Assembly: GCF_035989305.1 (NCBI RefSeq) | Contig: NZ_CP108514.1 | Span: 5,498,501-5,562,500, forward strand | Direction of reading: 5' to 3' | Length of the DNA stretch: 64,000 nt | Source: Streptomyces sp. NBC_01233 | Lineage (GTDB): Bacteria > Actinomycetota > Actinomycetes > Streptomycetales > Streptomycetaceae | Shown here: positions 32,043-54,391 of the stretch, one piece after another | Numbering within the stretch: the stretch's first letter is position 1 | Layout of the letters: every line of letters starts with the position of its first letter | The notes under the pieces: model-generated | What the model saw: the letters and a program-made list of their open reading frames with translations, nothing else | Databases searched by the model: none | What the model was told of the DNA's origin: nothing | Made by a program: the position numbers and the translations under genes

Positions 32043-32071
32043 TTGACCTACCTCTGTGAGGTAGGTACGCT
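32043..32071 (+). promoter_or_regulatory. str operon (rpsL) promoter with a 21-nt palindrome in the spacer
   Basis: -35 TTGACC (32043-32048), a 17-nt spacer and -10 TACGCT (32066-32071). ACCTACCTC-TGT-GAGGTAGGT (32046-32066) is a perfect inverted repeat running from inside the -35 to the first base of the -10. The mRNA would start near 32078, about 186 nt before rpsL. Confidence 0.85.
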
Positions 32072-32188: not shown

Positions 32189-32214
32189 CGACACACCCGA
32201 CCGCGTGGGTCGGG
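32189..32214 (+). promoter_or_regulatory. Leader motif of the str operon shared with the S10 operon
   Basis: Within the rpsL leader, CGACACA then CCCGACC-GCGTG-GGTCGGG forms a 7-bp hairpin. The 25 nt at 32189-32213 match 49935-49959 in the rpsJ leader at 24 positions. A second small palindrome CTCACC-TC-GGTGAG lies at 32163-32176. No other gene was seen in 31906-32263. Confidence 0.75.
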
Positions 32215-32263
32215 GGAGTTCCAGGTTAGTTTCACTACACGGCACACAGAAACCGGAGAAGTA

Positions 32264-32635
32264 GTGCCTACGATCCAGCAGCTGGTCCGTAAGGGCCGGC
32301 AGGACAAGGTCGAGAAGACAAAGACCCCCGCGCTTGAGGCTTCGCCCCAGCGTCGCGGCGTCTGCACGCGTGTGTTCACGACCACCCCGAAGAAGCCGAA
32401 CTCGGCGCTGCGCAAGGTCGCGCGTGTGCGTCTGACCTCTGGCATCGAGGTCACCGCTTACATTCCGGGTGAGGGACACAACCTGCAGGAGCACTCGATC
32501 GTGCTCGTGCGTGGTGGCCGTGTGAAGGACCTGCCGGGTGTTCGTTACAAGATCATCCGCGGTGCGCTTGACACCCAGGCTGTCAAGAACCGCAAGCAGG
32601 CCCGCAGCCGCTACGGCGCCAAGAAGGAGAAGTAA
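32264..32635 (+). CDS. rpsL: Ribosomal protein uS12
   Basis: 123 residues from GTG 32264 ([20 protein letters not shown]) with GGAG 8 nt upstream. S12 sits at the decoding centre and controls accuracy. Both streptomycin sites are wild type ([24 protein letters not shown]), so the ribosome should be streptomycin-sensitive. It is the first gene of the str operon; rpsG starts 3 nt after the stop. Confidence 0.97.
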
Positions 32636-32637
32636 GA

Positions 32638-33108
32638 ATGCCTCGTAAGGGCCCCGCCCCGAAGCGCCCGGTCATCATCGACCCGGTCTACGCATCTCCT
32701 CTGGTGACGTCGCTCATCAACAAGATCCTCCTGAACGGCAAGCGCTCCACCGCCGAGCGCATCGTTTACGGCGCCATGGAAGGCCTCCGCGAGAAGACCG
32801 GCAACGACCCGGTCATCACGCTGAAGCGCGCGCTGGAGAACGTCAAGCCGTCCCTCGAGGTCAAGTCCCGCCGTGTCGGTGGCGCGACCTACCAGGTCCC
32901 CGTCGAGGTCAAGCCGGGTCGCCAGTCGACCCTGGCCCTCCGCTGGCTCGTGGGTTACTCCCGCGCCCGTCGTGAGAAGACCATGACCGAGCGCCTCATG
33001 AACGAGCTGCTCGACGCCTCCAACGGTCTTGGCGCTGCCGTCAAGAAGCGCGAGGACACGCACAAGATGGCCGAGTCCAACAAGGCCTTCGCGCACTACC
33101 GCTGGTAG
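32638..33108 (+). CDS. rpsG: Ribosomal protein uS7
   Basis: 156 residues ([20 protein letters not shown]). S7 starts assembly of the small-subunit head and lines the E site; in E. coli it also represses the str operon by binding the rpsL-rpsG gap. Here that gap is only 2 nt, so such control would need another site. The family block NALENVKP-like [19 protein letters not shown] and the long C-terminal beta-arm region are intact. Confidence 0.97.
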
Positions 33109-33147
33109 TCCCAACCCACATCGAGACCGAGAGAAGACTGAGCCGAT

Positions 33148-35280
<2,133 letters not shown>

Positions 35281-35316
35281 CTCTTCCGAGTACACGCTTT
35301 AGGCTTGTCACCGGAG

Positions 35317-35355
35317 CCTCTGGGGCAACAGGAGTAACTTCCGTTGCCCCGGAGG
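35317..35355 (+). promoter_or_regulatory. Strong hairpin in the fusA-tuf gap
   Basis: A 13-bp stem with one T-G pair (35317-35329 with 35343-35355), whose loop AGGAGTAACTTCC can form three more pairs. No T run follows. It lies between a possible -10 TAGGCT (35300-35305) and tuf. In S. coelicolor tuf1 is known to have its own promoter in this gap as well as read-through from rpsL, so this hairpin is probably in the tuf leader. Confidence 0.7.
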
Positions 35356-35427
35356 GGCCGGCATTCCAGCAAAGATCACCTGGCGCCGATGAGTAAGGCG
35401 TACAGAACCACTCTCCAGGAGGACCCC

Positions 35428-36621
<1,194 letters not shown>

Positions 36622-36670
36622 TTCGGGTTCTGACCTGGTAGCTCGTTGAATCGGGCACCAAGTTGCACTG

Positions 36671-36712
36671 AAGGGCCCCGGCCCATCGCCTCGGCGGTGG
36701 GTCGGGGCCCTT
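36671..36712 (+). terminator. Terminator after tuf
   Basis: AAGGGCCCCG-G-CCCA (from 36671) pairs with TGGG-T-CGGGGCCCTT (to 36712), with further pairs inside (CGCC/GGCG). It lies 50 nt after the tuf stop. Confidence 0.92.
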
Positions 36713-36753
36713 CGGCGTTGCGGGTCCGCGCGCGGGCCCCGATGCGTGAGCGG

Positions 36754-36803
36754 GTACGAGAGAGGGCCGCACCCCCGTCCGGGGATACGGCCCTCTCTCG
36801 TAC
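36754..36803 (-). terminator. Terminator after rfbC
   Basis: A perfect 16-bp stem (36754-36769 with 36788-36803). It begins 10 nt past the stop of the minus-strand rfbC. It sits back to back with the tuf terminator, marking the left border of the envelope-gene island. Confidence 0.9.
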
Positions 36804-36813
36804 GTGCGGCGGG

Positions 36814-37413
36814 TCAGTTCACGCGCAGGGACTCGGTGAACTCCAGGCAGGCGGCGTGGTCGGGCAGCAGCCCGGTCTCGATCGCCTCGGCCAGCGACGG
36901 GGCGGCCTCGTCGCGGGCGGACAGCAGCGGGACGTCCGCCGGCCACTCGATGCCCAGGTCGGGGTCGAGGGGGTGGACCGCGTGCTCGCCGGTCGGGTTG
37001 TACGTCTCCGAGCAGAGGTACGAAAGCGTCGCGTCGTCGCTCAGCGCGCAGAAGCCGTGGCCCAGCCCCTCGGGGATGTAGACCGCGCGGCGGTCCACGT
37101 CGTCCAGGCGGACGCCTTCCCACTTGCCGAAGGTGGGGGAGCCGACCCGCAGGTCGACGATGACGTCGAGCACGGCGCCGCGTACGCAGGTCACGTACTT
37201 GGCCTGGCCGCGCGGCACGTCGGCGAAGTGGATGCCGCGGACCACGCCCGCGGAGGAGACCGAGAGGTTCGCCTGCGCCAGGTTCAGCGGGTGGCCGACG
37301 ACCTCGGCCAGCCGGTCGAAGCGGTACCACTCGGTGAACAGGCCGCGCGGGTCGCCGTGCAGCTGCGGGGTGACCTCGAAGGCACCCGCGATGGAGAGCT
37401 CGCGGAACTTCAT
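36814..37413 (-). CDS. rfbC: dTDP-4-dehydrorhamnose 3,5-epimerase
   Basis: 199 residues ([20 protein letters not shown]). It turns dTDP-4-keto-6-deoxyglucose into the L-rhamnose keto form, the third step to dTDP-L-rhamnose. The cupin shows [11 protein letters not shown], then [17 protein letters not shown] with the catalytic His, and [17 protein letters not shown]. Its ATG overlaps the TGA of rfbA by 4 nt, so the two are translated together. Confidence 0.95.
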
Positions 37414-38285
37414 CGGGCGTCCTCCTCGTCGAGCAGCGTCAGCAGGTAGTTGCCGTAGCCGCTCTTGGTGAGGGGCTGGGCGAGCTCGCGCAGCTGCACG
37501 GAATCGATCAGGCCGGCCCGCCAGGCCGCCTCCTCGATGCAGCCGATCTTGAAGCCCTGGCGCTCCTCGATCACGCGGACGAACTCCGAGGCCTGCACCA
37601 TCGAGACGAAGGTGCCGGTGTCCAGCCAGGCGGTACCGCGGTCGAGGATCGTGACGTTGAGCTCGCCGGCCTGGAGGTACGCGTCGTTGACGGCGGTGAT
37701 CTCCAGCTCGCCGCGGGCGCTGGGCTTCAGGCCGCGGGCTATCTCGACGACCTGGTTGTCGTAGAAGTAGAGACCCGGCACCGCGTAGCGGGACTTGGGC
37801 TTCTCCGGCTTCTCCTCGATGGAGATGGCCTGGCCGTTCTCGTCGAACTCGACCACGCCGTACGCGGTGGGGTCGGCCACCGGGTACGCGAACACGCGGC
37901 CGCCCTTGGCGCCGGTGTGCTGGGCGAGACGGGTGCCGAGGCCGCTGCCGTGGAAGATGTTGTCGCCGAGGATCAGCGCGACGGACTCGTCACCGATGAA
38001 GTCGGCGCCGAGGACGAAGGCCTGGGCGATGCCCTCCGGGCGCTCCTGGACGGCGTACTCCAGCCGCAGGCCGAACTGCGAACCGTCGCCGAGCAGTCGC
38101 TCGAACTGGTCGCGGTCTTCCGGGGTGGTGATGATCAGGATTTCGCTGATCCCCGCCATCACCAGGGTGGAGAGGGGGTAGTAGATCATCGGCTTGTCGA
38201 AGACGGGCAGCAGCTGCTTCGAGACTGCCCGGGTCAACGGCCAGAGTCGCGATCCGGTGCCACCGGCCAAAAGGATTCCACGCAT
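37410..38285 (-). CDS. rfbA: Glucose-1-phosphate thymidylyltransferase
   Basis: 291 residues ([20 protein letters not shown]). It makes dTDP-glucose, the first step to dTDP-L-rhamnose. The nucleotidyl-transfer signature [13 protein letters not shown], the KPMIYYPLS line and [11 protein letters not shown] are present. The length fits the short RmlA form. It starts 81 nt from the divergent rfbB, sharing a control region, and overlaps rfbC by 4 nt. Confidence 0.96.
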
Positions 38286-38351
38286 GGGTGAACCCTATGC
38301 GAGAGCGCACAGGGGAGCCGAGCCAAGGGAATGTGACGTTCGGCAGGCCGC

Positions 38352-38366
38352 TAGACTCTTCGTATT
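38352..38366 (+). promoter_or_regulatory. Leaderless promoter of rfbB
   Basis: -10 TAGACT (38352-38357), 9 nt before the ATG, with no ribosome site between. The -35 is weak. The gap 38286-38351 must also contain the leftward rfbA promoter. Confidence 0.6.
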
Positions 38367-39344
38367 ATGCGCATCCTCGTGACCGGCGGCGCCGGCTTCA
38401 TCGGTTCAGAATTCGTCCGCCAGCAGCTCGGTGCAGATGCCACGGCGCAGATCACTGTCTTCGACAAGCTGACCTACTCGGGCGTCGAGGCCAACCTCGC
38501 TCCGGTCGCGGACCACCCCGGCTACACCTTCGTCAAGGGCGACATCTGCGACGCCGAGGCCGTCGACGAGGTCATGCCCGGCCACGACGTCGTCGTGCAC
38601 TTCGCCGCCGAGTCCCACGTGGACCGTTCCATCGCCGGTGCGGGCCCGTTCGTGATGACCAACGTCGTCGGCACCCAGGTACTGCTCGACTCCGCCCGCA
38701 AGCACGGCGTCGGCCGCTTCGTCCACATCTCCACTGACGAGGTCTACGGCTCGATCAGCGAGGGCTCCTGGACGGAGGAGTGGCCGCTGGTGCCCAACTC
38801 CCCCTACTCCGCCTCCAAGGCGTCGTCCGACCTGCTGGCGCTGGCGTACCACCGCACCCACGGCATGGACGTGGTGGTCACCCGCTGCTCCAACAACTAC
38901 GGGCACTACCAGTTCCCGGAGAAGGTCATCCCGCTGTTCGTCTCGAACCTGATGGACGGCAAGAAGGTCCCGCTGTACGGCAACGGCGGCAACGTCCGCG
39001 ACTGGCTGCACGTCTCCGACCACTGCCGCGGCATCGACCTGGCCATGCGCAAGGGCCGCGCGGGCGAGGTCTACAACATCGGCGGTGGCACCGAGCTCAC
39101 CAACAAGGAGCTCACCGGCGTGCTGCTGGAGGCCGCGGGCCTCGGCTGGGAGATGGTCGAGCAGGTCGAGGACCGCAAGGGCCACGACCTCCGCTACTCC
39201 ATCGACATCAGCAAGATCGGCGCCGAGCTGGGCTACGCCCCGCAGGTCACCTTCGAGGACGGCATCAAGGCCACCATCGCGTGGTACCGCGAGAACCGCG
39301 CCTGGTGGGAGCCGCTGAAGGTCAAGGCGGCGCTGCAGAAGTGA
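38367..39344 (+). CDS. rfbB: dTDP-glucose 4,6-dehydratase
   Basis: 325 residues (MRILVTGGAGFIGSEFVRQQ). It carries NAD in a Rossmann fold (GGAGFIG), the catalytic Thr/Asp/Glu-type line HISTDEVYGS and the YSASKASSD segment with Tyr and Lys. It catalyses step two to dTDP-L-rhamnose. The last codons overlap the GTG start of rfbD by 4 nt. It opens the rightward run of island genes, which continues without a terminator to 45568. Confidence 0.96.
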   Translation: MRILVTGGAGFIGSEFVRQQLGADATAQITVFDKLTYSGVEANLAPVADHPGYTFVKGDICDAEAVDEVMPGHDVVVHFAAESHVDRSIAGAGPFVMTNVVGTQVLLDSARKHGVGRFVHISTDEVYGSISEGSWTEEWPLVPNSPYSASKASSDLLALAYHRTHGMDVVVTRCSNNYGHYQFPEKVIPLFVSNLMDGKKVPLYGNGGNVRDWLHVSDHCRGIDLAMRKGRAGEVYNIGGGTELTNKELTGVLLEAAGLGWEMVEQVEDRKGHDLRYSIDISKIGAELGYAPQVTFEDGIKATIAWYRENRAWWEPLKVKAALQK

Positions 39345-40261
39345 CCGCCTACCCCGTGCCCACGCGCTGGCTCGTCACCGGTGCCGCCGGGATGCTCGGC
39401 CAGGACGTCCTGGCGGTCCTGAAGGCCGCCCGGATCGAGGCCGTGGGCCTGCGCCGTGCCGACCTCGACATCACCGACCCGGCTGCCGTCCGGGCCGCGG
39501 TCGAGGGCGCCGCCGTGGTCGTCAACTGCGCCGCCTGGACCGACGTGGACGGCGCCGAGACCGCCGAGGAAGCCGCCACCGCCGTCAACGGCACCGGCGT
39601 GCGCGTCCTCGCCGAGGCCTGCGCCGCCGCCCACGTGCGCCTGATCCACGTCTCCACCGACTACGTGCTGCCCGGCGACGCCTCGGAGCCGTACCGCGAG
39701 GACACCACCACCGGGCCCGTGAACGCGTACGGCCGCTCCAAGCTGGTCGGCGAGCAGGCCGTGACCGAACTGCTGCCGCAGGACGGCTACGTGGTCCGCA
39801 CCGCCTGGCTCTACGGCGAGCACGGCCCCAACTTCGTCGCCACCATGCTGAAGCTGGCCGCCCAGCGGGACACCCTCGACGTGGTCGACGACCAGCACGG
39901 CCAGCCCACTTGGTCCTACGCGCTGGCCCGCCACCTCGTCGAGCTCGGCCAGGCCGCGCTGAAGGGCTGGGCCATGGGCGGGATCTACCACGGCACCGCG
40001 AGCGGCCGGACCACCTGGATGGGGCTCGCCCGCGAGACCTACCGGCTGAGCGGGCTCGACCCCGAGCGGATCCGGCCGACGACCTCCGAGGCGTTCGTCC
40101 GCCCCGCCGTCCGCCCCGCCTTCAGCGTGCTCGCGCACGACCGCTGGGACGAGGCGGGAATGGCCCCGCTCGCCGACTGGCGCGAACAGCTGGCCGAGGC
40201 GCTCGCCACCCCCGCCTTCACGGCACTGGCCGGAGCTGCCCGGGACGGCCGGGCGGGATGA
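39341..40261 (+). CDS. rfbD: dTDP-4-dehydrorhamnose reductase
   Basis: 306 residues from GTG 39341, which overlaps the rfbB stop (GTGA). It catalyses the last step to dTDP-L-rhamnose with NAD(P)H. WLVTGAAGMLGQDV is the dinucleotide loop, VVNCAAWTDVDGAE and VSTDYVLPG are family marks, and NAYGRSKLVGEQ has the catalytic Tyr and Lys. GTG 39356 is a less likely start. Its stop overlaps the ATG of the flippase gene. Confidence 0.94.
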   Translation: MTAYPVPTRWLVTGAAGMLGQDVLAVLKAARIEAVGLRRADLDITDPAAVRAAVEGAAVVVNCAAWTDVDGAETAEEAATAVNGTGVRVLAEACAAAHVRLIHVSTDYVLPGDASEPYREDTTTGPVNAYGRSKLVGEQAVTELLPQDGYVVRTAWLYGEHGPNFVATMLKLAAQRDTLDVVDDQHGQPTWSYALARHLVELGQAALKGWAMGGIYHGTASGRTTWMGLARETYRLSGLDPERIRPTTSEAFVRPAVRPAFSVLAHDRWDEAGMAPLADWREQLAEALATPAFTALAGAARDGRAG

Positions 40262-41592
40262 AAGCCCTGCTGACCAAGTTGAGCGCGGCGCTGCCGCCGG
40301 GCACCGTCGCGGTGGCCGGCGGCACCGTCGTGCTCGGCGCGGCCTCGTACGTCCACCTGGGCGTGGCCGGTCACAGCCTGACCATGGACGCCAAGGCGAA
40401 CGTGTCGGTGCTGTGGACGATCGTGATGTCCATCGGCATCGGCGTGTTCTTCCCCATCGAGCAGGAGCTCACCCGGATCGTCTCCGCCCGTGCGGTCCTG
40501 AACCAGGGCGCCGCCCCGGTGCTGCGCCGTGCGACCCTGCTCACCGCGGGGATCCTCGGCGCGACCCTGCTCGTACTCGGCCTCGGCGCACAACCCATCG
40601 CCGACCTGCTGTTCCACGGGGACCGCGGCCTGGTGGCCGCGCTCGGCGGGGCCTTCACCGGCATGGCCGTCTGCTACCTCACCCGTGGGGTGCTCGCCGG
40701 CCTCGGCCGCTTCGGCGCGTACGGTGCCCAGCTCGCCGTCGACGGCGGCCTGCGGATCGTACTCGCCTTCGGCTGCGCGCTGTTCGGGCTGCACTCGGCG
40801 CTGGCCTTCAGCCTCATCCTCGCCGTCGCGCCCGTCGTCGCGACCCTGGTCACGCTGCCCGCGCTGCTGCGCGCGGTCGGGCCCGGCGAGCCCATCGCCT
40901 GGCGGGACCTGTGCAACGGTCTCGGCCTGCTGGTCTGCGCGACCCTGCTGTCCCAGCTGGTCGTGAACGCGGCCGTGATGAGCACCAAGCTGCTGGCCCC
41001 GTCCGACAGCGCGCTGATCTCGGCGCTGCTGAGCGCCCTGGTCCTGGCGCGGGTGCCGCTCTTCGTCTTCGGCTCGCTCCAGGCCTCGCTGCTCAGCGGC
41101 CTCACCGCCGCCTTCACGGCCGGCGACAGGGTGGCCTTCTGGGCGATGCTGCGCCGGATCGGCATGGTCGTCGGAGCGCTCGGCGTGCTCGGCGGGGTGC
41201 CCGCCACGGTCCTCGGCCCCTGGCTCATCGAGGTGCTCTTCGGCACCGAGGACCCGGTGCTGGACCGCCTCGACTTCTTCCTGCTGTCCGCCGGCACCGT
41301 GGCGTACATGTTCGCGATGGTGCTCGGACAGGCGCTCATGGTATTCAAGCGGCACAACCTGCAGTTGCTCTGCTGGGCCGTCGGTACCGCGGTGCTGGTG
41401 GGCATCACCCTGGTCCCCGGCGACGTGGCCGTGCGCGTGATCCTCGCCTACGCGATCGGCTCCACCGCCACCGTCCTCGCTATGCTGGCAGCCCTCAGGC
41501 TGAGCTTCCCCGGAGCCGCGGCCGCAGCCGGTGAAGCACCCCGGCAGATGGCCGACGCAGGCCCTCCGGGCGTGGGCGCGGTCGGGAAATGA
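40258..41592 (+). CDS. Polysaccharide flippase-like membrane protein (Wzx/MATE-type fold)
   Basis: 444 residues with about 12 hydrophobic helices from residue 17 to 420 and a short Ala/Pro-rich tail. The arrangement (paired six-helix halves, GVFFPIEQELTRIVSARAVL after helix 2) looks like the MOP-type exporters that flip lipid-linked sugars, but no exact family is claimed. It lies between the rhamnose genes and glycosyltransferases, with 4-nt ATGA overlaps at both ends, so moving a rhamnose-containing lipid-linked glycan across the membrane is a reasonable inference. Confidence 0.7.
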   Translation: MKALLTKLSAALPPGTVAVAGGTVVLGAASYVHLGVAGHSLTMDAKANVSVLWTIVMSIGIGVFFPIEQELTRIVSARAVLNQGAAPVLRRATLLTAGILGATLLVLGLGAQPIADLLFHGDRGLVAALGGAFTGMAVCYLTRGVLAGLGRFGAYGAQLAVDGGLRIVLAFGCALFGLHSALAFSLILAVAPVVATLVTLPALLRAVGPGEPIAWRDLCNGLGLLVCATLLSQLVVNAAVMSTKLLAPSDSALISALLSALVLARVPLFVFGSLQASLLSGLTAAFTAGDRVAFWAMLRRIGMVVGALGVLGGVPATVLGPWLIEVLFGTEDPVLDRLDFFLLSAGTVAYMFAMVLGQALMVFKRHNLQLLCWAVGTAVLVGITLVPGDVAVRVILAYAIGSTATVLAMLAALRLSFPGAAAAAGEAPRQMADAGPPGVGAVGK

Positions 41593-42350
41593 CCATGCCT
41601 CCCCACGACGTCACACCGATCACCGAGCACTCGTATGTGCCACATTCCGCTGGAGCTACCGTGTCCCAATACGACGATGTCTGGCTGGTCATACCGGCCT
41701 ATAACGAGGGCCAGGTGATCGCCGACGTGGTCGAGGGGGCCCGCAAGACGTTCCCCAACATCGTCGTCGTCGACGACGGCAGCACCGACGACTCGGCCAA
41801 GCACATAGCGACGACCGGCGCCCACCTGGTGCGCCACCCGGTCAACCTCGGCCAGGGCGCGGCCCTCCAGACCGGCCTCACCTACGCGCTCGCCCAGCCC
41901 GGCGCCCGCTACTTCGCCACCTTCGACGCCGACGGCCAGCACCAGACCAAGGACGTCGAGACGATGGTCGCGGTGCTCCGCCGCGACGAGGCCGACGTCG
42001 TGCTCGGCTCCCGCTTCATCGAGCAGAACGGCCAGGTGCCGTGGATCAAGCAGGTCGTGCTGCGCACGGCCGCCGCCGTCAGCCCGACCGCGCGCAAGCT
42101 CAAGCTCACCGACGCGCACAACGGTCTGCGCGTGCTGGGCCGGGAGGCCGCCGAGCAGCTGAACATCACCATGAACGGCATGGCCCACGCGTCCGAGCTC
42201 GTCGGCTTCCTCGCCGGCTCCACGCTGCGCGTCACCGAGGTACCGGTGGACATCCTCTACACCGACTACTCACGCGCCAAGGGTCAGTCCCTGATCAACG
42301 GCGTCAACATCCTTTTTGACATTTCGCTGCGGGAGCGTGGGCGTCGATGA
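41589..42350 (+). CDS. GT2 glycosyltransferase, dolichyl-phosphate-mannose-synthase-like
   Basis: 253 residues. After a 25-residue start comes VWLVIPAYNEGQVIADVVEG, VVVDDGSTDDSAKHI, RHPVNLGQGAALQTGL and the metal motif in FATFDADGQHQTKD, then VVLGSRFIEQ and DAHNGLRVLGR. This is the DPM1-type group that joins a sugar to a polyprenyl phosphate in the cytoplasm. It has no C-terminal membrane helices, so the next gene's product (DUF2304) may hold it at the membrane. It overlaps the flippase gene and the DUF2304 gene by 4 nt each. Confidence 0.88.
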   Translation: MTMPPHDVTPITEHSYVPHSAGATVSQYDDVWLVIPAYNEGQVIADVVEGARKTFPNIVVVDDGSTDDSAKHIATTGAHLVRHPVNLGQGAALQTGLTYALAQPGARYFATFDADGQHQTKDVETMVAVLRRDEADVVLGSRFIEQNGQVPWIKQVVLRTAAAVSPTARKLKLTDAHNGLRVLGREAAEQLNITMNGMAHASELVGFLAGSTLRVTEVPVDILYTDYSRAKGQSLINGVNILFDISLRERGRR

Positions 42351-42787
42351 AGTACTTCTGGATCCAGCTGCTGCTGATCGTCGGCTCGGTGTCGATGGCA
42401 CTGATGTTCATCCGGACCTGGGGCCAGGCGAAGAACCGGGCGTGGAAGCGGATCGCGTTCTCGGCGTTCGTCATCGTCAACGTGTACGCGGTCCTCCGCC
42501 CGACCGACGTCACCTGGCTCGCCCAGCAGCTGGGCGTCGGCCGTGGCACCGACCTGGTGCTGTACGTGATGGTGCTCGCGATGGGCTTCCTCACCCTCAA
42601 CACCTTCCTGCGCTTCCGCTCGCTGGAGAAGAAGATCACCGACCTCGCCCGGACGGTGGCCATCAACGAGGGCGTCCGGCACAACGACGAGCGTCTGGGT
42701 GCGGACGCCGTCGTGGCGCAGGCCGCCGCCCCGGACTCCGCCGCCGGTGCCAAGGCCGAGGCCGACTCCCACTCCGTGAAGGCCTGA
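42347..42787 (+). CDS. DUF2304-family small membrane protein
   Basis: 146 residues. Three hydrophobic helices (WIQLLLIVGSVSMALMFI; IAFSAFVIVNVYAVL; LVLYVMVLAMGFLTLNTFL) are followed by a helical segment RFRSLEKKITDLARTVAINE and a low-complexity Ala-rich tail. DUF2304 proteins are commonly encoded next to GT2 enzymes of the DPM1 kind, as here. A role as membrane partner or flippase subunit is inferred. It overlaps the GT2 gene before it by 4 nt. Confidence 0.85.
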   Translation: MKYFWIQLLLIVGSVSMALMFIRTWGQAKNRAWKRIAFSAFVIVNVYAVLRPTDVTWLAQQLGVGRGTDLVLYVMVLAMGFLTLNTFLRFRSLEKKITDLARTVAINEGVRHNDERLGADAVVAQAAAPDSAAGAKAEADSHSVKA

Positions 42788-42792
42788 AGTCC

Positions 42793-43692
42793 ATGGTGAC
42801 CTTCGACTTCATGCTCCCCTACTACGGGGACGTGCAGCTGATGCAGGACGCCGTCCGCAGCGTCCTGGCGCAGACGGACCGCGACTTCCGCCTCGTCGTC
42901 ATCGACGACGGCAAGGAGCCCGACGTACCCGGCTGGTTCGCGCAGCTCGGTGACGACCGGGTCCACTACACGCGCAACGAGCAGAACCTCGGCATCACCA
43001 AGAACTTCCAGAAGTGCGTGCGGCTGTCCGAGGCCGACTACGTCGTCATCATGGGCTGCGACGACCTGCTGCACCCGCACTACCTGGAGACCGTGCGAGG
43101 GATCGTCGGGGCCCACCCGGGCATCGGCATGGTCCAGCCCGGTGTCGAGGTCATCGACGGCGACGGCCAGGTGACGGCGGGTCTCGCGGACAACACCAAG
43201 AAGCGGCTGTACGCACCGCAGGTGAAGGGCCGTCGGCTGATGGCCGGTGAGGAGCTGGCCGCCAGCGTGCTGCGCGGCAACTGGCTCTACTTCCCGTCGA
43301 TCGCCTGGCGCGGCGAGGCCCTGCGCAAGGTGAACTTCCGCGACGACTACTCGGTGATCCAGGACCTCGCGCTCGTCGTCGACCTGCTCGAAGACGGCGA
43401 GCAGATGGTCATCGACAACTCCACCACCGTGTTCCAGTACCGCCGCCACGCGGTCAGCGAGTCTTCGGTGCAGGCCTTCTCCGGCACCCGCTTCGCCGAG
43501 GCCGAGCGGTACTTCTCCGCGGTCGCCGCGCGCATGGACGCCCGCGGCTGGCCGAAGGCGGCCCGTGCGGCGCGCTTCCACAGCGCCTCCCGTCTGCACG
43601 CGCTGACGATGCTCCCCGGAGCCCTGCGCCGCGGACACAAGGAGGGCGCTCGTACGCTGGCGAAGCACGCCTTCACCTCCGGCCAGAACTGA
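42793..43692 (+). CDS. GT2-family glycosyltransferase
   Basis: 299 residues (MVTFDFMLPYYGDVQLMQDA). GT-A fold: LPYYGD...VRSVLAQTDRDFRLVVIDDG, then NLGITKNFQKCV and the metal-binding YVVIMGCDDLLHPHYLE. It ends in a basic helical part (GALRRGHKEGARTLAKHAF). The donor is unknown; dTDP-L-rhamnose from the neighbouring rfb genes is a candidate. The ATG at 42793 lies 5 nt after the DUF2304 stop, with GAAGG about 9 nt upstream. Confidence 0.87.
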   Translation: MVTFDFMLPYYGDVQLMQDAVRSVLAQTDRDFRLVVIDDGKEPDVPGWFAQLGDDRVHYTRNEQNLGITKNFQKCVRLSEADYVVIMGCDDLLHPHYLETVRGIVGAHPGIGMVQPGVEVIDGDGQVTAGLADNTKKRLYAPQVKGRRLMAGEELAASVLRGNWLYFPSIAWRGEALRKVNFRDDYSVIQDLALVVDLLEDGEQMVIDNSTTVFQYRRHAVSESSVQAFSGTRFAEAERYFSAVAARMDARGWPKAARAARFHSASRLHALTMLPGALRRGHKEGARTLAKHAFTSGQN

Positions 43693-43708
43693 GCCGACTC
43701 CGCCCACC

Positions 43709-45568
43709 ATGAAACGGACTGAGATGACACACCTGGCCCCCGAGGAGGTCGGTGAGGCCGGCGCTCCGGCGCAGCGGCCTGCCGAACCGGCGCAAGGCAA
43801 GAGCCACTTGTCCCCCTCCCGGAGCGAGGCGTGGCTGTCCCGGCGGTGGGTGCTGGTCCTGGCCGAGGTCGTCGTCAGTCTGGTGGCAGCCCTCGGGTTC
43901 ACGCTGCTGAGCACGCACATCAGCGTGAACCCGCTCGTCCGCATCGGTCAGGTCAGCGGTCTCGCCAAGCTCCAGATGTACGCGGCCGTCCTGGGCCTGC
44001 CGCTGCTCGCGATCCTGCTCTACACCGCCTACCGCGGCACCCTGCACCGCCGCCAGCTGGCGAAGCGCCTGGTGTGCGCCGCCCTGGCCGGTCTCGCCAC
44101 CGGTGTGGTGGCGGGCGGAGTGGTCGTCGCGCTGCGCGGTACGCCCTGGGGCCTCGGCGGCCAGGAGGGCGACCCGAGCGCCCTGATCGCCATGGCCAAC
44201 TCCTTCCTGCACGGCGAGGGTCCGTCGGGCATCTACCCGCCGCTCTTCCCCGGTCTGATGGCCGTCTGGGCGAAGCTCCGCTACGACGGTGCCGGCGGGG
44301 CCGGGTTCGCCCTCAAGGACTTCCAGATCTTCTTCACCGCCATCGCGGGCCCGATGACGTACCTGGCCTGGCGGCTGCTGCTCCGGCCGTTCTGGGCGCT
44401 GCTGATCGCCGTGCCGTCGGCCGTCCTCTTCATGGACCCGATCCGTCCGTACAGCCACGCCAGCATGCTCGTCCTGCTGCCGCTGCTCGGCTACACCCTG
44501 CGCGAGATGCGCCGCTGCGGTGACCGGCCGCTGCGCGCGACGCTGCTCCGCGGCGCGGTCCTCGGCCTCGTCTTCGGCGTGGTCTTCCTCTGGTACTCCG
44601 GCTGGTACGTCTGGGCCGCCCCCGGCGTCTTCCTGCTGGCGCTGTGCGTGTTCCCGTGGCGCGCCGGCAAGACGGTGGTCAAGCGGGCCGCCGCGTTCGT
44701 CGGCGCCACCGTGCTGACGGCCGGCGTCGTGGGCGCCCCGCTGATCTACCAGATGGCCCGGCTCGGTTCCCAGACCCCGGACCGCTACGCGTTCCTGGCC
44801 GTGTACGTCGACCCGGCGTACGTACTGGGCTGGGTGTCCGACCGTTCCGGGAAGCTGGAGTACCAGACCTGGCCGGCGGCCGGCGAGATGGCCGGCCAGA
44901 GCGGCTTCGCCCTGCTGCTGCTGTTCGCCGTGGGCCTGGGCGTCGGCCTGGGGCTGCGCAACATCATGGTCCTCACCGCCGCCGCCACGCTGGCGGGTGC
45001 CTGGCTGGCGCGCTTCTGGTTCGCCTCGCACATGGCGCACGACAAGGCCGTGCAGCTCTTCCCGCGCACCACCTGGATCATCATGTACTGCCTGATGATC
45101 CTGGCCGTCCTCGGCATGATGGCGGTGGTCGACCGGGGCTCCGGCTGGGCCGAGCGCACCCTGCGGCCGAGCGGTGCGGCCCCGGCTGCCCGCGTCGTGC
45201 CCCGGCGGGTCGTCGCGCAGCTCGCGGCCGGCATGGTGTGCGCGATCGCCCTGTTCGCCACGATGGGCGCGTCCTGGTCGGTCAACCGGTACATGCCGCA
45301 GTCCGACAACATGACGATGGGCATCGACGCCTGGCGGGCCCACACCATCAAGAAGGCGGACGGCACCTGCCCGCGCTTCGCGCCGGACAAGAAGAAGTGC
45401 GCGGACATCGTCACGAACGACTGGAAGCAGAACGCCGACGACGGCGAGATCTGGTGCGGTGGCATCGGCCCGTTGAACTGGCAGGCCGTCTGCGGGCGCA
45501 AGGCGCCGGCGTCGGAGCTGAAGAAGGAAGAGCAGGAGCAGAAGGAGCGGGAGAAGGCGAAGAAGTAG
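43709..45568 (+). CDS. AftA-like GT-C membrane glycosyltransferase
   Basis: 619 residues. A cytoplasmic Pro/Ala-rich start (to 45) is followed by about 11-12 helices. The first large outer loop holds WGLGGQEGD (Asp typical of GT-C enzymes) and SGIYPPLFPGLMAVW. Then come DFQIFFTAIAGPMTYLAWRL, a PYSHASMLVLLPLL line and VVFLWYSGWYVW. This order resembles the N-terminal domain of mycobacterial AftA, which puts the first arabinofuranose on galactan. The C-terminal AftA domain is missing; instead there is a short outer tail with four cysteines and a Lys/Glu-rich end. ATG 43724 is an alternative start; neither has a good ribosome site. Confidence 0.68.
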   Translation: MKRTEMTHLAPEEVGEAGAPAQRPAEPAQGKSHLSPSRSEAWLSRRWVLVLAEVVVSLVAALGFTLLSTHISVNPLVRIGQVSGLAKLQMYAAVLGLPLLAILLYTAYRGTLHRRQLAKRLVCAALAGLATGVVAGGVVVALRGTPWGLGGQEGDPSALIAMANSFLHGEGPSGIYPPLFPGLMAVWAKLRYDGAGGAGFALKDFQIFFTAIAGPMTYLAWRLLLRPFWALLIAVPSAVLFMDPIRPYSHASMLVLLPLLGYTLREMRRCGDRPLRATLLRGAVLGLVFGVVFLWYSGWYVWAAPGVFLLALCVFPWRAGKTVVKRAAAFVGATVLTAGVVGAPLIYQMARLGSQTPDRYAFLAVYVDPAYVLGWVSDRSGKLEYQTWPAAGEMAGQSGFALLLLFAVGLGVGLGLRNIMVLTAAATLAGAWLARFWFASHMAHDKAVQLFPRTTWIIMYCLMILAVLGMMAVVDRGSGWAERTLRPSGAAPAARVVPRRVVAQLAAGMVCAIALFATMGASWSVNRYMPQSDNMTMGIDAWRAHTIKKADGTCPRFAPDKKKCADIVTNDWKQNADDGEIWCGGIGPLNWQAVCGRKAPASELKKEEQEQKEREKAKK

Positions 45569-45581
45569 CCTTCGTCCCGAC

Positions 45582-45625
45582 CGAGGACCCCCGTCCCGCA
45601 CATCGCTGCGGACCGGGGGTCCTCG
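45582..45625 (+). terminator. Terminator closing the rhamnose-glycan operon
   Basis: CGAGGACCCCCG (45582-45593) pairs with CGGGGGTCCTCG (45614-45625), and within it TCC..GCA pairs with TGC.GGA. It starts 14 nt after the stop at 45568. Confidence 0.9.
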
Positions 45626-45742
45626 CGTATCCGTACCCCTGTTCGCCCGAGACCGACCCCCCTGATCGGGCCGGCACCGGCGGCCAGTAGCATCCGGCCG
45701 GTCAGCCATTACTTCTGGCATCACAACAGGGGCGGGGACAAC

Positions 45743-48364
45743 TTGAAACTAGGTCGTGTGCGCGGGACGGCTCTGGCCGCCGCGCTCGGGGTCGTTGCAG
45801 TGCTCGGCATCCAGGGCATCGCCAGCGGAACGGGTTCCTCCGACGGGGGAGAGGTATCGCCCTACAGCACCCGCGCCCGCGAGAAGGGTCCGGTCGAGGG
45901 CGAGCTGCACCGGCTCGCGCTGAAGCCCAAGGGCAGGGGCGAGGCCGTCCTCTCCCAGCAGGGCACGGAACCCTTCGGGCTCCTCGGCGTCTCCTGGAGC
46001 GACCCCGAGGCCGAGGTCAAGGGGAAGATCGAGGCCCGCACCCGCGACGCCGACACCGGCAAGTGGTCGAAGTGGGTCGAGCTGGAGCAGGCCGAGTCCG
46101 GCCTCGACGGCAAGCGCCCCGGGCTGCGCGGAGCCACCGAGCCGGTCTGGGTCGGTCCGTCCGACGGCGCCGAGGTGCGGGTGTCCGGCGGCGCCGAGCT
46201 GCCCGCCGGCATGGAACTGAACCTGGTGGACCCGGGTGCCGGCGGCGCGAAGGCCAAGAAGAAGGGCAACCTGGGCCTCGGTCCGGCTGCCTTCGCCCTT
46301 CCCGCGGACGACCCCGTGCCGGTCCCGGCGACCCCGCCGACCACGCCGGGACCGGAGTCGACCGCCCCGCGGCCGGACGTGGTCTCGCGCGTGCAGTGGG
46401 GCGCGGACGAGTCCCTGAACAACGAGGGCCCGATCTACCTCGCCGGAGCGAAGATCAAGGCGGTCTTCGTCCACCACACCGCCGCCACCACGCCGTACGA
46501 GTGCTCCGAGTCCGCTGCCATCGTCCGGAGCATCCACAAGTACCACGTGGAGATCGAGAAGTGGCGCGACCTCGGCTACAACTTCCTCGTCGACAAGTGC
46601 GGCACGGTCTTCGAAGGCCGTCAGGGCGGTGTGGACCAGCCCGTCCAGGGCGCGCACACCTACGGCTGGAACTCCGAGTCGACGAGCGTCTCGATCCTCG
46701 GTGACTACACGAACGCGGGGGCCTCGCCCGCCGCGCTCGAAGCCGTCTCCAAGGTCGCCGCGTACAAGCTCGGCCAGTACGACGGCGACATGAACGGCAC
46801 GGCGACGCTGACCGCCGGCGCCACCCAGAAGAACTTCTTCGGCAAGAGCTACACCGAGAAGCAGACTTACGAGTTCAAGTCGCTCTCGGGCCACCGGGAC
46901 GGCTTCAACACCCAGTGCCCGGGCAACTCCCTCTACCCGCAGCTGGAGGCGCTCCGCCAGACGGGCCCCGCGGCCCAGCTGAAGCTCGCCTCGGTGAACG
47001 GGGCGCCGGCCGTGCCGGGCGCCACCTACCCCGGCGGCGCGGCCCTGACGGTCGACTGGAGCACCAGCACGGCCAGTGGCGCGCTGAACAAGTTCGAGCT
47101 GCTGGTGGACGGTGAGGCCGCCGCCGTCACCGACGCCGCCGCCCGCAAGGCGACCGCGGTCGTGACCAACGGCAAGCACGAGGTCCGGGTCCGCGCGACC
47201 GCCGCGAACGGCAAGGTCTCCACGAGCCTCGCGGTCACCGTCGAAGCGGACGTCAAGGGCGCCAAGTTCGTCCCCCTCGCGCCGAAGCGCCTGATGGACA
47301 CCCGTACCGGCCTGGGCGTCCGCTCCGGCCCCGTGGGTACCGCCGGCGTGGTCACCCTGCCGGTGGCCGCCGCCACCGGTGGCACGCCCACCGCGGTGGT
47401 GCTGAACGTGACGGCGACCAACCCGACGCAGCCGAGCTTCGTGTCGGTGTACCCGAGCGGGACGACCCGCTCCAGTGCCTCGAACCTGAACTTCACCCCG
47501 GGCCAGACGATCCCCAACCTGGTGGTCGTGCCGGTCATCAACGGGAGCGTCAGCTTCTACAACAACCAGGGCAACGTCGACCTGATCGCGGACATCACCG
47601 GCTACTTCACCTCCGAGGGTGAGGGCGCCACGCAGACCAACTTCGGCCCGAAGCGGCTGATGGACACCCGTACCGGCCTGGGCGTTCCGGCCGGCCCGGT
47701 CGGCACCGCCGGCGTGGTCACCCTGCCCGTGGCGGGCGTCGACGGCATCCCGGCCACCGGCGTCAAGGCCGTGGTGCTGAACGTGACGGCGACCAACCCG
47801 ACGCAGCCGAGCTTCGTGTCGGTCTTCCCGAGCGGGACCACGCGCTCCAGTGCCTCGAACCTGAACTTCACCCCGGGCCAGACGATCCCCAACCTGGTGG
47901 TCGTCCCGGTGGTGGACGGGAAGGTCAGCTTCTACAACAACCAGGGCAACGTCGACCTGATCGCGGACATCACCGGCTACTTCTCGGACGGTGCCGAGGG
48001 CGCCGTGCACGCGAACTTCGGCCCGAAGCGCCTGATGGACACCCGCACGGGCCTCGGCGTCCGGCAGGGCCCGGTCACCGGGGGCGGCGTGGTCACGCTG
48101 CCCGTGGCGGGCGTCGGCGGCATCCCGGCCACCGGGATCAAGGCCGTGGTGCTGAACGTGACGGCGACCAACCCGACCGAGGCGAGCTTCGTGTCGGTGT
48201 TCCCGAGCGGTACGACGCGCTCCAGCGCCTCGAACCTGAACGTCACGGCCGGCCTGACGATCCCCAACCTGGTGGTCGTCCCGGTGGTGGACGGCAAGGT
48301 CAGCTTCTACAACAACTCCGGTTCCGTGGATCTCATCGCGGACATCACGGGGTACTTCAGCTAG
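45743..48364 (+). CDS. Secreted peptidoglycan-recognition N-acetylmuramoyl-L-alanine amidase with three C-terminal modules
   Basis: 873 residues from TTG 45743 (GGGG site upstream). A signal peptide (LAAALGVVAVLGIQGIASG) is followed by an N-terminal sandwich region (to about 200) and the PGRP/amidase_2 domain (about 210-415). The zinc ligands are in VFVHHTA and SLSGHRDGFNTQCPGNSL, and GYNFLVDKCGTVFEGRQGG is the family core. After an Ig-like part there are three modules of about 110 residues (each with KRLMDTRTGLGV, VVLNVTATNPT, TRSSASNLN and DLIADITGYF). It should cut or bind peptidoglycan outside the cell; the modules may hold it on wall glycan. It is separated from the glycan operon by a terminator. 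Confidence 0.9.
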   Translation: MKLGRVRGTALAAALGVVAVLGIQGIASGTGSSDGGEVSPYSTRAREKGPVEGELHRLALKPKGRGEAVLSQQGTEPFGLLGVSWSDPEAEVKGKIEARTRDADTGKWSKWVELEQAESGLDGKRPGLRGATEPVWVGPSDGAEVRVSGGAELPAGMELNLVDPGAGGAKAKKKGNLGLGPAAFALPADDPVPVPATPPTTPGPESTAPRPDVVSRVQWGADESLNNEGPIYLAGAKIKAVFVHHTAATTPYECSESAAIVRSIHKYHVEIEKWRDLGYNFLVDKCGTVFEGRQGGVDQPVQGAHTYGWNSESTSVSILGDYTNAGASPAALEAVSKVAAYKLGQYDGDMNGTATLTAGATQKNFFGKSYTEKQTYEFKSLSGHRDGFNTQCPGNSLYPQLEALRQTGPAAQLKLASVNGAPAVPGATYPGGAALTVDWSTSTASGALNKFELLVDGEAAAVTDAAARKATAVVTNGKHEVRVRATAANGKVSTSLAVTVEADVKGAKFVPLAPKRLMDTRTGLGVRSGPVGTAGVVTLPVAAATGGTPTAVVLNVTATNPTQPSFVSVYPSGTTRSSASNLNFTPGQTIPNLVVVPVINGSVSFYNNQGNVDLIADITGYFTSEGEGATQTNFGPKRLMDTRTGLGVPAGPVGTAGVVTLPVAGVDGIPATGVKAVVLNVTATNPTQPSFVSVFPSGTTRSSASNLNFTPGQTIPNLVVVPVVDGKVSFYNNQGNVDLIADITGYFSDGAEGAVHANFGPKRLMDTRTGLGVRQGPVTGGGVVTLPVAGVGGIPATGIKAVVLNVTATNPTEASFVSVFPSGTTRSSASNLNVTAGLTIPNLVVVPVVDGKVSFYNNSGSVDLIADITGYFS
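47284..48358 (+). repeat. Three near-identical ~330-bp repeats within the amidase gene
   Basis: Units 47284-47609, 47648-47983 and 48022-48358 encode the C-terminal modules. Long stretches are identical at the DNA level, for example around GTGCTGAACGTGACGGCG in each. Silent sites are conserved too, which points to recent duplication or gene conversion. Confidence 0.9.
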
Positions 48365-48365
48365 T

Positions 48366-48424
48366 GGCGTGAACACGCCTTTTTGCAGGTGAGGGGCTCC
48401 ACGCCGCAAGGTGCGGAGCCCCTC
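48366..48424 (+). terminator. Two terminators after the amidase gene
   Basis: GGCGTG-AA-CACGCC followed by TTTTT (48366-48384) is a classical terminator with a very small loop. A second stem GAGGGGCTCC/GGAGCCCCTC (48391-48400 with 48415-48424) follows. Confidence 0.9.
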
Positions 48425-48467
48425 GCGCATGTCGGGGCAGGGAACGGAAACAGGGGACACAGGGGAC

Positions 48468-49568
48468 ATGGGGAAGAGCGAGGACGACAGGGCGGGCATC
48501 TCCGACGAGGAGCTGGCCCGGTTCATGGAGCAGGCCGCCCGGGGCGCGGGGAACGCCCCGACGGAGCCCTCCGCGCGGGCGCGGATGGTGACCGAACGGC
48601 TGCGCGCCACGCAGGGGCAGGAGCCGCCGGGGTGGCGGACCGGTCCCGCACGGCGGGAGCGCCGGCGCCCCGGGCGGCTGGGGGCCGCTCTGGCCGTCCT
48701 CGGCGTCGCCGGGCTCGCGCTGATCGCCGTACGGCCCGAGCTGGTGATCGACCGGCTCACCGGCAAGACCGAGGCCCGCCAGGAGGCCCGGAACGCCGCT
48801 CCGCTGCCCGGGGAGTCCGGACGTCCGACCGCCCCACCGCCGTCGACGGCGCCCGACCAGCCGACCCTGCAGGAACCTTTCCGCGGCTCCCCGGCCCTCC
48901 AGTGGGCCGACGGGGCCGCCGGCATCGAGGTCCCCGCGGCCACCGCCGTCGGCGGGATGTCCCAGCAGCAGGTCGCGGACGCCCTGGAGAAGGCCAGACA
49001 GTTCCTGATCGCGACCAACCTCGACCCGGCGACCCTGCGCGGGGAGCGGCCGGCCGCCGCCCTGGCGATCCTGGACCCCCGGCAGCCGGACGTCCCGCAG
49101 CGGCTGGAGCAGTCCCTGGCGAAGCCCACCGCGGAGAACACCCCGGTGCTGCTCTTCACCCGCTTCGACCAGGCGAAGGTCAAGCCGGTCGGCGACGTCG
49201 TCAAGGTGCGCGGCAGCATGCGCGCGGAGCAGGGGGAGCCCGGGGAACTCCTCGTGGTGACGGACTACACCTTCGTCCACCCCATGACGGACGGGGGCAC
49301 GAGCGTGCAGCGCACCATCGTGCGCCGGCAGGTCACCCTGAGCCTGCTCGACCCGGCGCGCTGGGAGGCCACCCGGGGCAGGCTCCAGCTGCGCAAGTAC
49401 GTCTCGGAGTGGTCGAACGTCGAATGCGACTCGGCCGACGGCTTCCTGCACCCGGACTTCCCGCGGGAGGCGCCGGCCGGGCCGGCGCCCACCGGGCCCG
49501 CCGTGGATCCGTACGACCGCAGCAGGGACATCAAGGGCGAAGGGTGCGGGACGGTCACCCGCTCCTGA
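48468..49568 (+). CDS. Membrane-anchored or secreted hypothetical protein
   Basis: 366 residues from ATG 48468 (AGGGGAC just upstream). A cytoplasmic, Glu/Arg-rich N terminus of about 85 residues resembles the DEELARFMEQAARG start of small membrane regulators. One helix (LGAALAVLGVAGLALIAV) is followed by a Pro-rich linker and an outer domain (about 145-340) with WADGAAGIEVPAATAVGGMS, VADALEKARQFLIATNLDP and a late VECDSADGFLHPDFPRE. No family was recognised. It is flanked by terminators before and the rpsJ promoter after, so it is probably a single gene at the island's right edge. Confidence 0.7.
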   Translation: MGKSEDDRAGISDEELARFMEQAARGAGNAPTEPSARARMVTERLRATQGQEPPGWRTGPARRERRRPGRLGAALAVLGVAGLALIAVRPELVIDRLTGKTEARQEARNAAPLPGESGRPTAPPPSTAPDQPTLQEPFRGSPALQWADGAAGIEVPAATAVGGMSQQQVADALEKARQFLIATNLDPATLRGERPAAALAILDPRQPDVPQRLEQSLAKPTAENTPVLLFTRFDQAKVKPVGDVVKVRGSMRAEQGEPGELLVVTDYTFVHPMTDGGTSVQRTIVRRQVTLSLLDPARWEATRGRLQLRKYVSEWSNVECDSADGFLHPDFPREAPAGPAPTGPAVDPYDRSRDIKGEGCGTVTRS

Positions 49569-49608
49569 CCGGGGGAGGAGCCCCGCCGGGCGATGCGCGT
49601 GCTGCGGT

Positions 49609-49636
49609 TTGACCACTCAGCGTGGCGGGGTATTCT
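49609..49636 (+). promoter_or_regulatory. Promoter of the S10 operon (rpsJ)
   Basis: -35 TTGACC (49609-49614), 16-nt spacer and -10 TATTCT (49631-49636), the same -35 as the rpsL promoter. The start near 49643 gives a leader of about 395 nt. Confidence 0.65.
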
Positions 49637-50037
49637 CTTCGGCCCGATTGGCCAGGTACGTGCCTCGTATGGCAGACTACTCAAGTTGCTCGGCTGAGTG
49701 CCGATGCTGCGCGCCTCCCGCCGGGAGGACCGGAAGCGAGTCCCACAGTACTCGTCGTTCTTAATCTGCCTCTCGGGGCAGCAATGGGGGCGGACGTACG
49801 GGAATCTTCTGGGAAGTGTCAGCACGGTGCCCACCAGGCACTCGGTGGGTGTTTCTCCCCCGAAACGCGGTCACAGGGACCGCACCCCCTTGGACGAGGG
49901 AATTTCCGTATGGGAATTTTCTGTAGAGGGAGTGCGACACGCCCGACCGCGTGGGTCGGAGAGGGGCCGCGGGATCCGTCCCGCAGCCGACCGAGAGCCA
50001 GAGCGTTTCCACATACAGACAGGACTACGGAGTAGCC
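49637..50037 (+). promoter_or_regulatory. Long structured leader of the S10 operon
   Basis: About 400 nt with no gene. Hairpins seen by eye are CCCACC...GGTGGG followed by TGTTTCT (49830-49856, terminator-like), GCGGTC-N5-GACCGC (49867-49883) and CCGACC-GCGTG-GGTCGG (49943-49959). The last belongs to the 25-nt motif (49935-49959) that also occurs in the rpsL leader. Direct repeats GGGAATTT lie near 49899 and 49913. Several ribosomal operons are controlled through such leaders by one of their own proteins; which one acts here is not known. Confidence 0.6.
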
Positions 50038-50346
50038 ATGGCGGGACAGAAGATCCGCATCCGGCTCAAGGCCTACGACCACGAGGTCATCGATTCCTCG
50101 GCGAAGAAGATCGTCGAGACGGTGACGCGCACTGGTGCGTCGGTCGCGGGCCCGGTGCCGCTGCCCACTGAGAAGAACGTGTACTGCGTCATCAAGTCGC
50201 CGCACAAGTACAAGGACTCGCGCGAGCACTTCGAGATGCGCACGCACAAGCGCCTGATCGACATCCTCGACCCGACCCCCAAGACCGTTGACTCGCTGAT
50301 GCGCCTGGACCTTCCGGCCGGCGTTGACATCGAGATCAAGCTCTGA
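50038..50346 (+). CDS. rpsJ: Ribosomal protein uS10
   Basis: 102 residues ([20 protein letters not shown]). It is part of the small-subunit head and, as NusE, of antitermination complexes with NusB. First gene of the S10 operon. The ATG at 50038 has GGAG 7 nt upstream; a longer frame to 49951 crosses the leader and is rejected. rplC starts 14 nt after it. Confidence 0.97.
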
Positions 50347-50360: not shown

Positions 50361-51005
50361 ATGGCAAAGCAGATCAAGGGCGTCCTGGGCGAGAAGCTCG
50401 GCATGACCCAGGTCTGGGACGAGAACAACCGTGTCGTCCCGGTGACCGTGGTCAAGGCCGGACCCTGCGTCGTTACCCAGGTCCGTACGAACGACATCGA
50501 CGGCTACGAGTCGGTCCAGATCGCCTTCGGCGAGATCGACCCGCGCAAGGTGAACAAGCCCCTCAAGGGCCACTTCGCCAAGGCCGACGTGACCCCCCGC
50601 CGCCACCTGGTGGAGCTCCGCACCTCCGACGCCAGCGAGTACACGCTCGGCCAGGAGATCACTGCTGAGGTGTTCGAGTCCGGCGTCAAGGTTGACGTCA
50701 CGGGCAACAGCAAGGGCAAGGGCTTCGCCGGTGTCATGAAGCGGCACAACTTCCGGGGCCTCGGCGCCGGTCACGGTGTGCAGCGCAAGCACCGCTCCCC
50801 CGGTTCGATCGGTGGCTGCGCCACCCCTGGGCGTGTCTTCAAGGGCATGCGCATGGCCGGTCGCATGGGTAACGAGCGTGTCACCACCCAGAACCTGACC
50901 ATCCACGCGGTTGACGCGGAGAAGGGTCTGCTCCTCATCAAGGGTGCGGTCCCCGGTCCGAACGGCGGCCTCGTCCTGGTCCGTACCGCGGCCAAGGGGG
51001 CTTGA
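50361..51005 (+). CDS. rplC: Ribosomal protein uL3
   Basis: 214 residues ([20 protein letters not shown]). It starts large-subunit assembly, with a long loop reaching the peptidyl-transferase centre ([20 protein letters not shown]). Full family length. GAGGCGTCGAG precedes the start. rplD follows after 4 nt. Confidence 0.97.
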
Positions 51006-51009
51006 GGTA

Positions 51010-51983: not shown

Positions 51984-52022
51984 CGGAGGTCTAGTCGTCC
52001 GGAATCGGACGAGGACTGAGAA

Positions 52023-52859: not shown

Positions 52860-52871
52860 GAGCGGGTTTAG

Positions 52872-53153: not shown

Positions 53154-53196
53154 AGGCGGGGTGGTTACGACTATGACTTACACCGAAGGGACAACC

Positions 53197-54386: not shown

Positions 54387-54391
54387 CCGAC

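Follow-up and report, generated by a model that had tools for sequence, protein, structure and literature searches.

The described systems closest to the locus studied here concern the S10 and str operons of ribosomal protein genes. In Escherichia coli, the S10 operon is controlled from its one leader by uL4, which affects both transcription and translation, and this leader is long and highly structured, according to the accessible part of a review (PMC10931766). The str operon of E. coli is controlled by uS7, whose site lies between rpsL and rpsG and not in the rpsL leader. Control of expression from the rpsL leader was proposed by Naville and Gautheret (2010), whose attenuators rest on Rho-independent terminators and show no global conservation of sequence or structure; none of the genera mentioned in the accessible text belongs to the actinobacteria (PMC2965389). 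RNA motifs before rpsJ have likewise been described, namely the rpsJ motif of Peptostreptococcaceae from a 2024 survey and the S10 r-leader of Firmicutes, both from other lineages and with no mention of sharing with rpsL in the accessible portions of the two sources (PMC11109978, PMC7247131). Here, we analyzed a stretch of 64,000 nucleotides from Streptomyces sp. NBC_01233 (contig NZ_CP108514.1, positions 5,498,501–5,562,500 of the forward strand; "the window" below), in which the leaders of the str and S10 operons each carry a nearly identical motif of 25 nucleotides. Whereas the S10 leader controlled by uL4 in E. coli is long and structured, the element found here is short, is common to the S10 and str operons, and has no match in Rfam. 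Like a boxA/nut site, it is a short, conserved piece of RNA near the beginning of ribosomal transcription units, but it stands in messenger RNA (mRNA) leaders and not in ribosomal RNA (rRNA).

The accessible parts of three surveys of leaders and structured RNAs (PMC7247131, PMC11109978, and PMC2864571), of the study of rpsL attenuators (PMC2965389), and of the review cited above contain no such element, and neither do those of three mycobacterial papers (PMC8470358, PMC3207917, and PMC2904383). A full-text search with a 17-letter piece of the motif returned no paper; subscription papers and supplements lay outside its scope, so that an earlier description is possible. With Rfam 15, only transfer RNAs were found in the window, and the two leaders, searched at expectation values (E) up to 5, gave four subthreshold matches, none of which reached the gathering score. 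As far as these searches reach, the leaders of the str and S10 operons are known control sites, and a 25-nucleotide element shared by both is new.

A preliminary description of the window had claimed near-identical 25-mers before rpsL and rpsJ, set in unlike flanks and lying 50 to 80 nucleotides before the first gene of each operon. All three claims were borne out, and the copies lie where they had been placed. The two copies agree at 24 of 25 letters, and the end of the motif is separated from the start of rpsL by 50 nucleotides and from that of rpsJ by 78 nucleotides. No ungapped 25-mer alignment of the two 300-nucleotide leaders had more than these 24 identities, and 500 first-order Markov resamples of the leaders gave a mean best identity of 16.4 and a maximum of 20. 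In the 10.3-Mb genome of the strain, the two leader copies were the sole significant matches to a covariance model (51 and 45 bits), while the 17 weaker matches had E values of 0.8 to 9.5, the third-best overall scoring 22 bits at E 0.8. The signal is carried by the 25-mer as a whole, because the bare 17-nucleotide hairpin within it, searched in the window at up to three mismatches, was no rarer than chance (two found versus 2.17 expected).

The motif is widely conserved. At up to three mismatches, it was found in 58 of 61 genomes (that of the strain and 60 relatives), of which 50 have two copies and eight a single one; the reversed pattern gave one match over all 61. A covariance model built from 17 sequences (R1; significance cut-off E 0.01) matched 225 of 246 genomes of the class, representing 87 of 95 genera, and found two matches in each of the 24 genomes of the genus. 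Twenty of the 21 class genomes without an R1 match were examined individually: five gave no rpsL match, eight have a diverged copy with two to four mismatches before rpsL or rpsJ, and seven, all from family f33, lack the motif. Searching a public species collection with a degenerate 25-mer gave at least 120 stretches, 80 of which were listed. Among those listed, 79 lie within 400 nucleotides upstream of rpsL (25) or rpsJ (54) on the same strand, and the 80th is undecidable as a contig end cuts it off; the hosts named include Streptomyces, Micromonospora, Actinoplanes, Nocardioides, Arthrobacter, Brevibacterium, Nocardiopsis, Frankia, and Microlunatus. Both the conservation in related genomes and the near absence of copies away from ribosomal genes support what the preliminary description had proposed, a leader element common to both operons; it is class-wide and, as far as searched, found almost exclusively there. 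We regard the existence of this common element as close to certain, and its distribution suggests that one factor may control both operons.

Outside the class, inspection covered 29 rpsL leaders of other members of the phylum. Three contain clear copies (G303, G402, and G442), all from one further class, two doubtful ones (G307 and G296) were not counted, and no motif was seen in the remaining leaders; a string resembling the motif in G374 lies upstream of the promoter and was likewise left out of the count. Within this second class, 25 of 30 rpsL leaders have the form CGRAACGCCCGRCCCCGTGGGYCGG or one close to it, in which positions 3 and 4 differ and ACGCCCG and CGTG are kept (these rows had been filtered for ACG at positions 5–7). 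R1 also matched 28 out-of-class genomes across the phylum. Of 18 such regions inspected, from 17 genomes, 17 look like chance matches, and only that of G442 lies before rpsL.

To describe the letters of the motif, 212 leaders were read (101 of rpsL and 111 of rpsJ), mostly from genomes chosen for an R1 or pattern match. The motif is present at up to five mismatches in 150 of them (86 rpsL and 64 rpsJ leaders, one from the second class), comprising 66 distinct sequences. Nine columns, positions 3, 6, 8–11, 16, 17, and 19, are invariant in all 150 copies, and position 7 is a purine in 147. Position 18 is G in 92 copies and T in 58, as in the window, and we refer to the two groups as G18 and T18. 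Judged by eye, the edges of the motif are also the limit of conservation. The motif is kept, with zero to three mismatches, even in the five small genomes of family f23 that were read, whose GC (guanine plus cytosine) content is lower.

The position of the motif suggests that it acts as RNA. Of 111 rpsL rows (G442 being counted twice), 92 show a promoter pattern TTGA[CT]...TAnnnT ahead of the motif, at distances of 21 to 276 nucleotides and against a shuffled expectation of 1.1, and in none of the 111 rows does it occur between motif and gene. Similarly, 52 of 111 rpsJ leaders contain the promoter-like pattern GGCAnAnT...GTT[GC] (shuffled expectation, 0.4). Pattern and motif occur together in 46 leaders, the pattern alone in six (all f33), the motif alone in 18, and neither in 41; in those 46, out of 64 rpsJ copies, the pattern precedes the motif by 7 to 246 nucleotides. 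Between motif and start codon lie about 20 to 200 nucleotides, depending on the leader. Because the motif lies downstream of predicted promoters, mostly by 100 to 250 nucleotides, and at a variable distance from the start codon, it is most likely transcribed in both operons and most likely an RNA element. GACAC within the motif had been considered as a −35 box and was rejected on inspection and by the promoter-pattern scan.

The arrangement of the two operons is linked to where the element is found. In 24 genomes in which rpsJ follows tuf within 230 nucleotides, the motif is present at rpsL in all 24 and at rpsJ in none. Likewise, in families f17 and f18 (16 genomes with spacers of 103 to 339 nucleotides, three of them shared with the 24), it is present at rpsL in 16 and at rpsJ in none; the rpsL figures for both sets are partly a matter of selection, as an R1 match was the reason for including most of these genomes. 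In 47 genomes, S10 has a head of its own and rpsJ carries the motif; among them, the rpsL copy is the more diverged in 35 and the rpsJ copy in two, with 10 equal (sign test, 1e-8); counted by family, the figures are 16, 1, and 1 (p = 3e-4). The rpsL copy has been lost in eight genomes with a separate S10 head, whereas the reverse loss, a motif only at rpsL with rpsJ at least 600 nucleotides from tuf or tuf outside the stretch, was not found among 121 genomes. Ten of the 121 are without the motif, comprising seven of f33 and three whose rpsL leader was not read. Presence of the motif at rpsJ is tied to a separate S10 promoter. It looks as if the transcript carrying S10 keeps the element, with S10 rather than str as its primary target.

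Two folds can be drawn for the motif. The hairpin claimed in the preliminary description, CCGACC/GGTCGG with loop GCGTG (hairpin (i)), can form in the window sequence with a predicted −10.6 kcal/mol. An alternative, hairpin (iv), is predicted to be weaker than (i) for the T18 sequence of the window and stronger in G18 lineages: of 47 distinct G18 sequences, 46 are predicted to be more stable as (iv), and of 19 T18 sequences, 17 as (i). In a T18 set of 37 distinct sequences, to which the second class, with 19 distinct ones, contributed 18 new ones, the pairs of hairpin (i) form in 86.5% of cells and show seven further pair types versus 3.5 in shuffles (0 of 500 shuffles as high), with a covariation score reached by 4 of 500 shuffles. 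The compensating changes to be looked for in actinomycete leaders partly support the claimed hairpin in the T18 lineages, including the second class, and do not support it in G18. In G303, G, G, and C replace A, A, and U at positions 3, 12, and 22, which is compatible with both folds. The two are mutually exclusive because GUCG can pair with either CGAC, and a switch between them would be possible.

We propose that the 25-nucleotide motif acts in cis as RNA, within the mRNA leader of the transcript carrying the S10-spc genes, and that the str mRNA bears a further copy when str is transcribed separately. A trans-acting protein would read the near-invariant ACRCCCG and CGKG, presented by the small hairpin, and would thereby tune both operons. 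Under autogenous control, this protein would most likely be a product of the S10-spc cluster itself, uL4 being the first candidate, followed by uS10/NusE, uL3, uL23, and uL2. Control of transcription elongation or of mRNA stability would be the expected mode of action; simple masking of the ribosome-binding site is hard to reconcile with so variable a distance to the start codon. Autogenous control would fit the retention pattern and would have a precedent in uL4 of E. coli. From comparison of sequences, we give this reading, an autogenous operator read by an S10-spc-encoded protein and tuning both operons, a probability of roughly one half.

Several observations weigh against it. Seven genomes of f33 have both operons yet lack the motif, and the transcription starts used above are predictions from promoter patterns. 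The structural evidence is mixed as well: for hairpin (i) in the T18 set, three pairs changed on both sides, little more than in shuffles, of which 45 in 500 reached this number, and in 47 distinct G18 sequences, its pairs form in 73.4% of cells, no better than shuffles, with many pairs broken. Hairpin (iv) shows no both-sided change in G18, where its four inner pairs are invariant; in T18, its covariation score was reached by only 2 of 500 shuffles, and its pair 9–18 is never formed. Because the shuffle statistics ignore the relatedness of the sequences, either fold may be the conserved one. In addition, ungapped and gapped comparison of the motif with the 16S and 23S rRNA of the strain gave nothing above shuffles at the sequence level, offering no sign of rRNA mimicry, although obvious similarity to rRNA is typically absent from ribosomal leaders, as stated in the accessible part of one survey (PMC2864571).

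Other explanations account for part of the same data. In a processive antitermination or elongation control like that of boxA, nut, or put, the RNA would load factors on the polymerase so that the long str and S10-spc transcripts escape Rho. One copy per separately promoted unit, with none at an rpsJ close behind tuf, would suit such a role, as would the loose spacing to promoter and start codon, the strict primary sequence, and the lack of a T-tailed terminator common to eight rpsJ leaders of the genus. However, with only two significant matches in the genome of the strain, the rRNA leaders and other operons there do without the element, and to our knowledge its sequence is unlike boxA; we consider this explanation, the main rival, possible but on balance improbable. 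The small size of the hairpin, its place in a long leader ahead of the ribosome-binding site, and its variable surroundings would suit a nuclease or RNA-binding protein that cuts or protects both mRNAs there. So strict a sequence and only two sites per genome would be unusual for a nuclease site, and an element of RNA processing or stability of this kind appears unlikely.

The CCGACC-N5-GGTCGG dyad, present in the T18 consensus, could also be the DNA site of a transcription regulator inside the transcribed region. G/T degeneracy at position 18 would suit protein–DNA contacts, and in family f33, the 11-mer CGACACGCCCG also lies just upstream of the predicted rpsJ promoter. Nevertheless, the sense orientation in 79 of 79 decidable matches among those listed, the variable promoter distance, the right half-site often broken in G18 sequences, and the lack of any other significant site in the genome of the strain all make a DNA site quite improbable. 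Pairing with a small RNA, for which the long run of invariant letters could provide a seed, or translation as part of a leader peptide is more improbable still. Of the three frames, frame 1 is somewhat more often open as far as the start codon (90 of 150, against 84 and 71), but in 14 leaders from four lower-GC families, it has no upstream start in four and a stop within the leader in five, and its third positions 3, 6, and 9 are invariant in 150 copies; checking the frames revealed no consistent start or open frame, and the leader peptide was rejected. Finally, GC-rich composition makes the bare 17-nucleotide hairpin common at three mismatches, as chance similarity or a recent duplication of a leader piece would have it, but the relatives, the class survey, the public matches, and the Markov resamples all speak against such an origin, whose probability we consider negligible.

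Table 1. Coordinates of the motif, its possible folds, predicted promoters, and genes in the window
Feature	Position	Strand	Remarks
Shared 25-nucleotide leader motif, str copy	32189-32213	+	Reads CGACACACCCGACCGCGTGGGTCGG; pattern search and covariance model
Shared 25-nucleotide leader motif, S10 copy	49935-49959	+	Reads CGACACGCCCGACCGCGTGGGTCGG; pattern search and covariance model
Hairpin (i), str copy	32197-32213	+	CCGACC-GCGTG-GGTCGG; motif positions 9-14 with 20-25
Hairpin (i), S10 copy	49943-49959	+	
Alternative hairpin (iv), str copy	32189-32212	+	Motif positions 1-4/21-24, 6/20, 8-11/16-19; positions 5 and 7 bulged
Alternative hairpin (iv), S10 copy	49935-49958	+	Same pairing drawable
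Predicted str promoter	32043-32071	+	TTGACC-N17-TACGCT; 117 nucleotides upstream of motif
Predicted S10 promoter, −10 and start region	49671-49688	+	GGCAGACT...GTTG; 246 nucleotides upstream of motif
Second S10 promoter candidate	49609-49636	+	TTGACC-N16-TATTCT
rpsL (S12), first str gene	32264-32635	+	GTG start; PF00164
Rest of str operon: rpsG, fusA, tuf	32638-36621	+	PF00177, EF-G and EF-Tu domains
rpsJ (S10), first gene of S10 operon	50038-50346	+	ATG start; PF00338
S10-spc cluster after rpsJ	50361-61235	+	L3, L4, L23, L2, L22, S3, L14, L6, and SecY identified among genes tested

In the window, about 13 kb of other genes separate tuf from rpsJ. At 36814–48364 are genes of sugar-nucleotide enzymes, namely a dTDP-sugar epimerase and an NAD-dependent epimerase, together with one for a glycosyltransferase and one for an amidase-like protein; two further open reading frames tested from this gap gave no Pfam match. 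The S10 leader of the window contains terminator-like hairpins at 49736–49755 and 49830–49857, both upstream of the motif, while the single terminator-like site of the rpsL leader lies upstream of the predicted promoter. By the scan criteria, one of eight rpsJ leaders of the genus has a terminator-like site, and an attenuator acting via terminators is not favored, as the T tail of the window leader is absent from the seven others. A block of about 150 nucleotides upstream of the motif (49683–49830; GCGCGCCTCCCGCCGGGAGGACCGGAAGCGAGTCCCACAG... and GGGAATCTTCCGGGAAG) appears by eye very strongly conserved and is also present in seven other rpsJ leaders of the genus. It has no Rfam match and a single full-length copy in the genome of the strain, and it is possibly a separate leader structure.

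The leaders of f33 compared were L216, L218, L221–L223, L225–L227, L241–L247, L249, and L251–L253. A search for a substitute motif found no 7- to 10-mer common to both operons in at least five genomes each. The rpsL leaders of f33 contain the blocks CACGGCATACCCACC...GGTGGGT and GCTGTCACCGTGCAGC, and its rpsJ leaders a GGCGTCC...GACGCC hairpin block, all conserved by eye. In several f33 genomes (e.g. L243, L242, and L245), the 11-mer mentioned above is followed by GGGTTTGC or GGGTTGCA and lies outside the predicted transcript.

The str and S10 operons form the core of the ribosomal protein genes, and their sharing of one element differs from the E. coli scheme, in which each has its own separate repressor. 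The proposed operator might be part of a class-wide actinobacterial system, in which one protein would bind the same RNA on both transcripts, possibly as a two-state hairpin, and set elongation in a new form of antitermination or attenuation dedicated to mRNA; this wider proposal is speculative, and we hold it to be rather unlikely as a whole. The pattern of a single copy on each transcript with its own promoter predicts the target of the element, and a 25-nucleotide sequence kept nearly letter for letter throughout the class and in a second class provides a small and precise handle for finding the factor.

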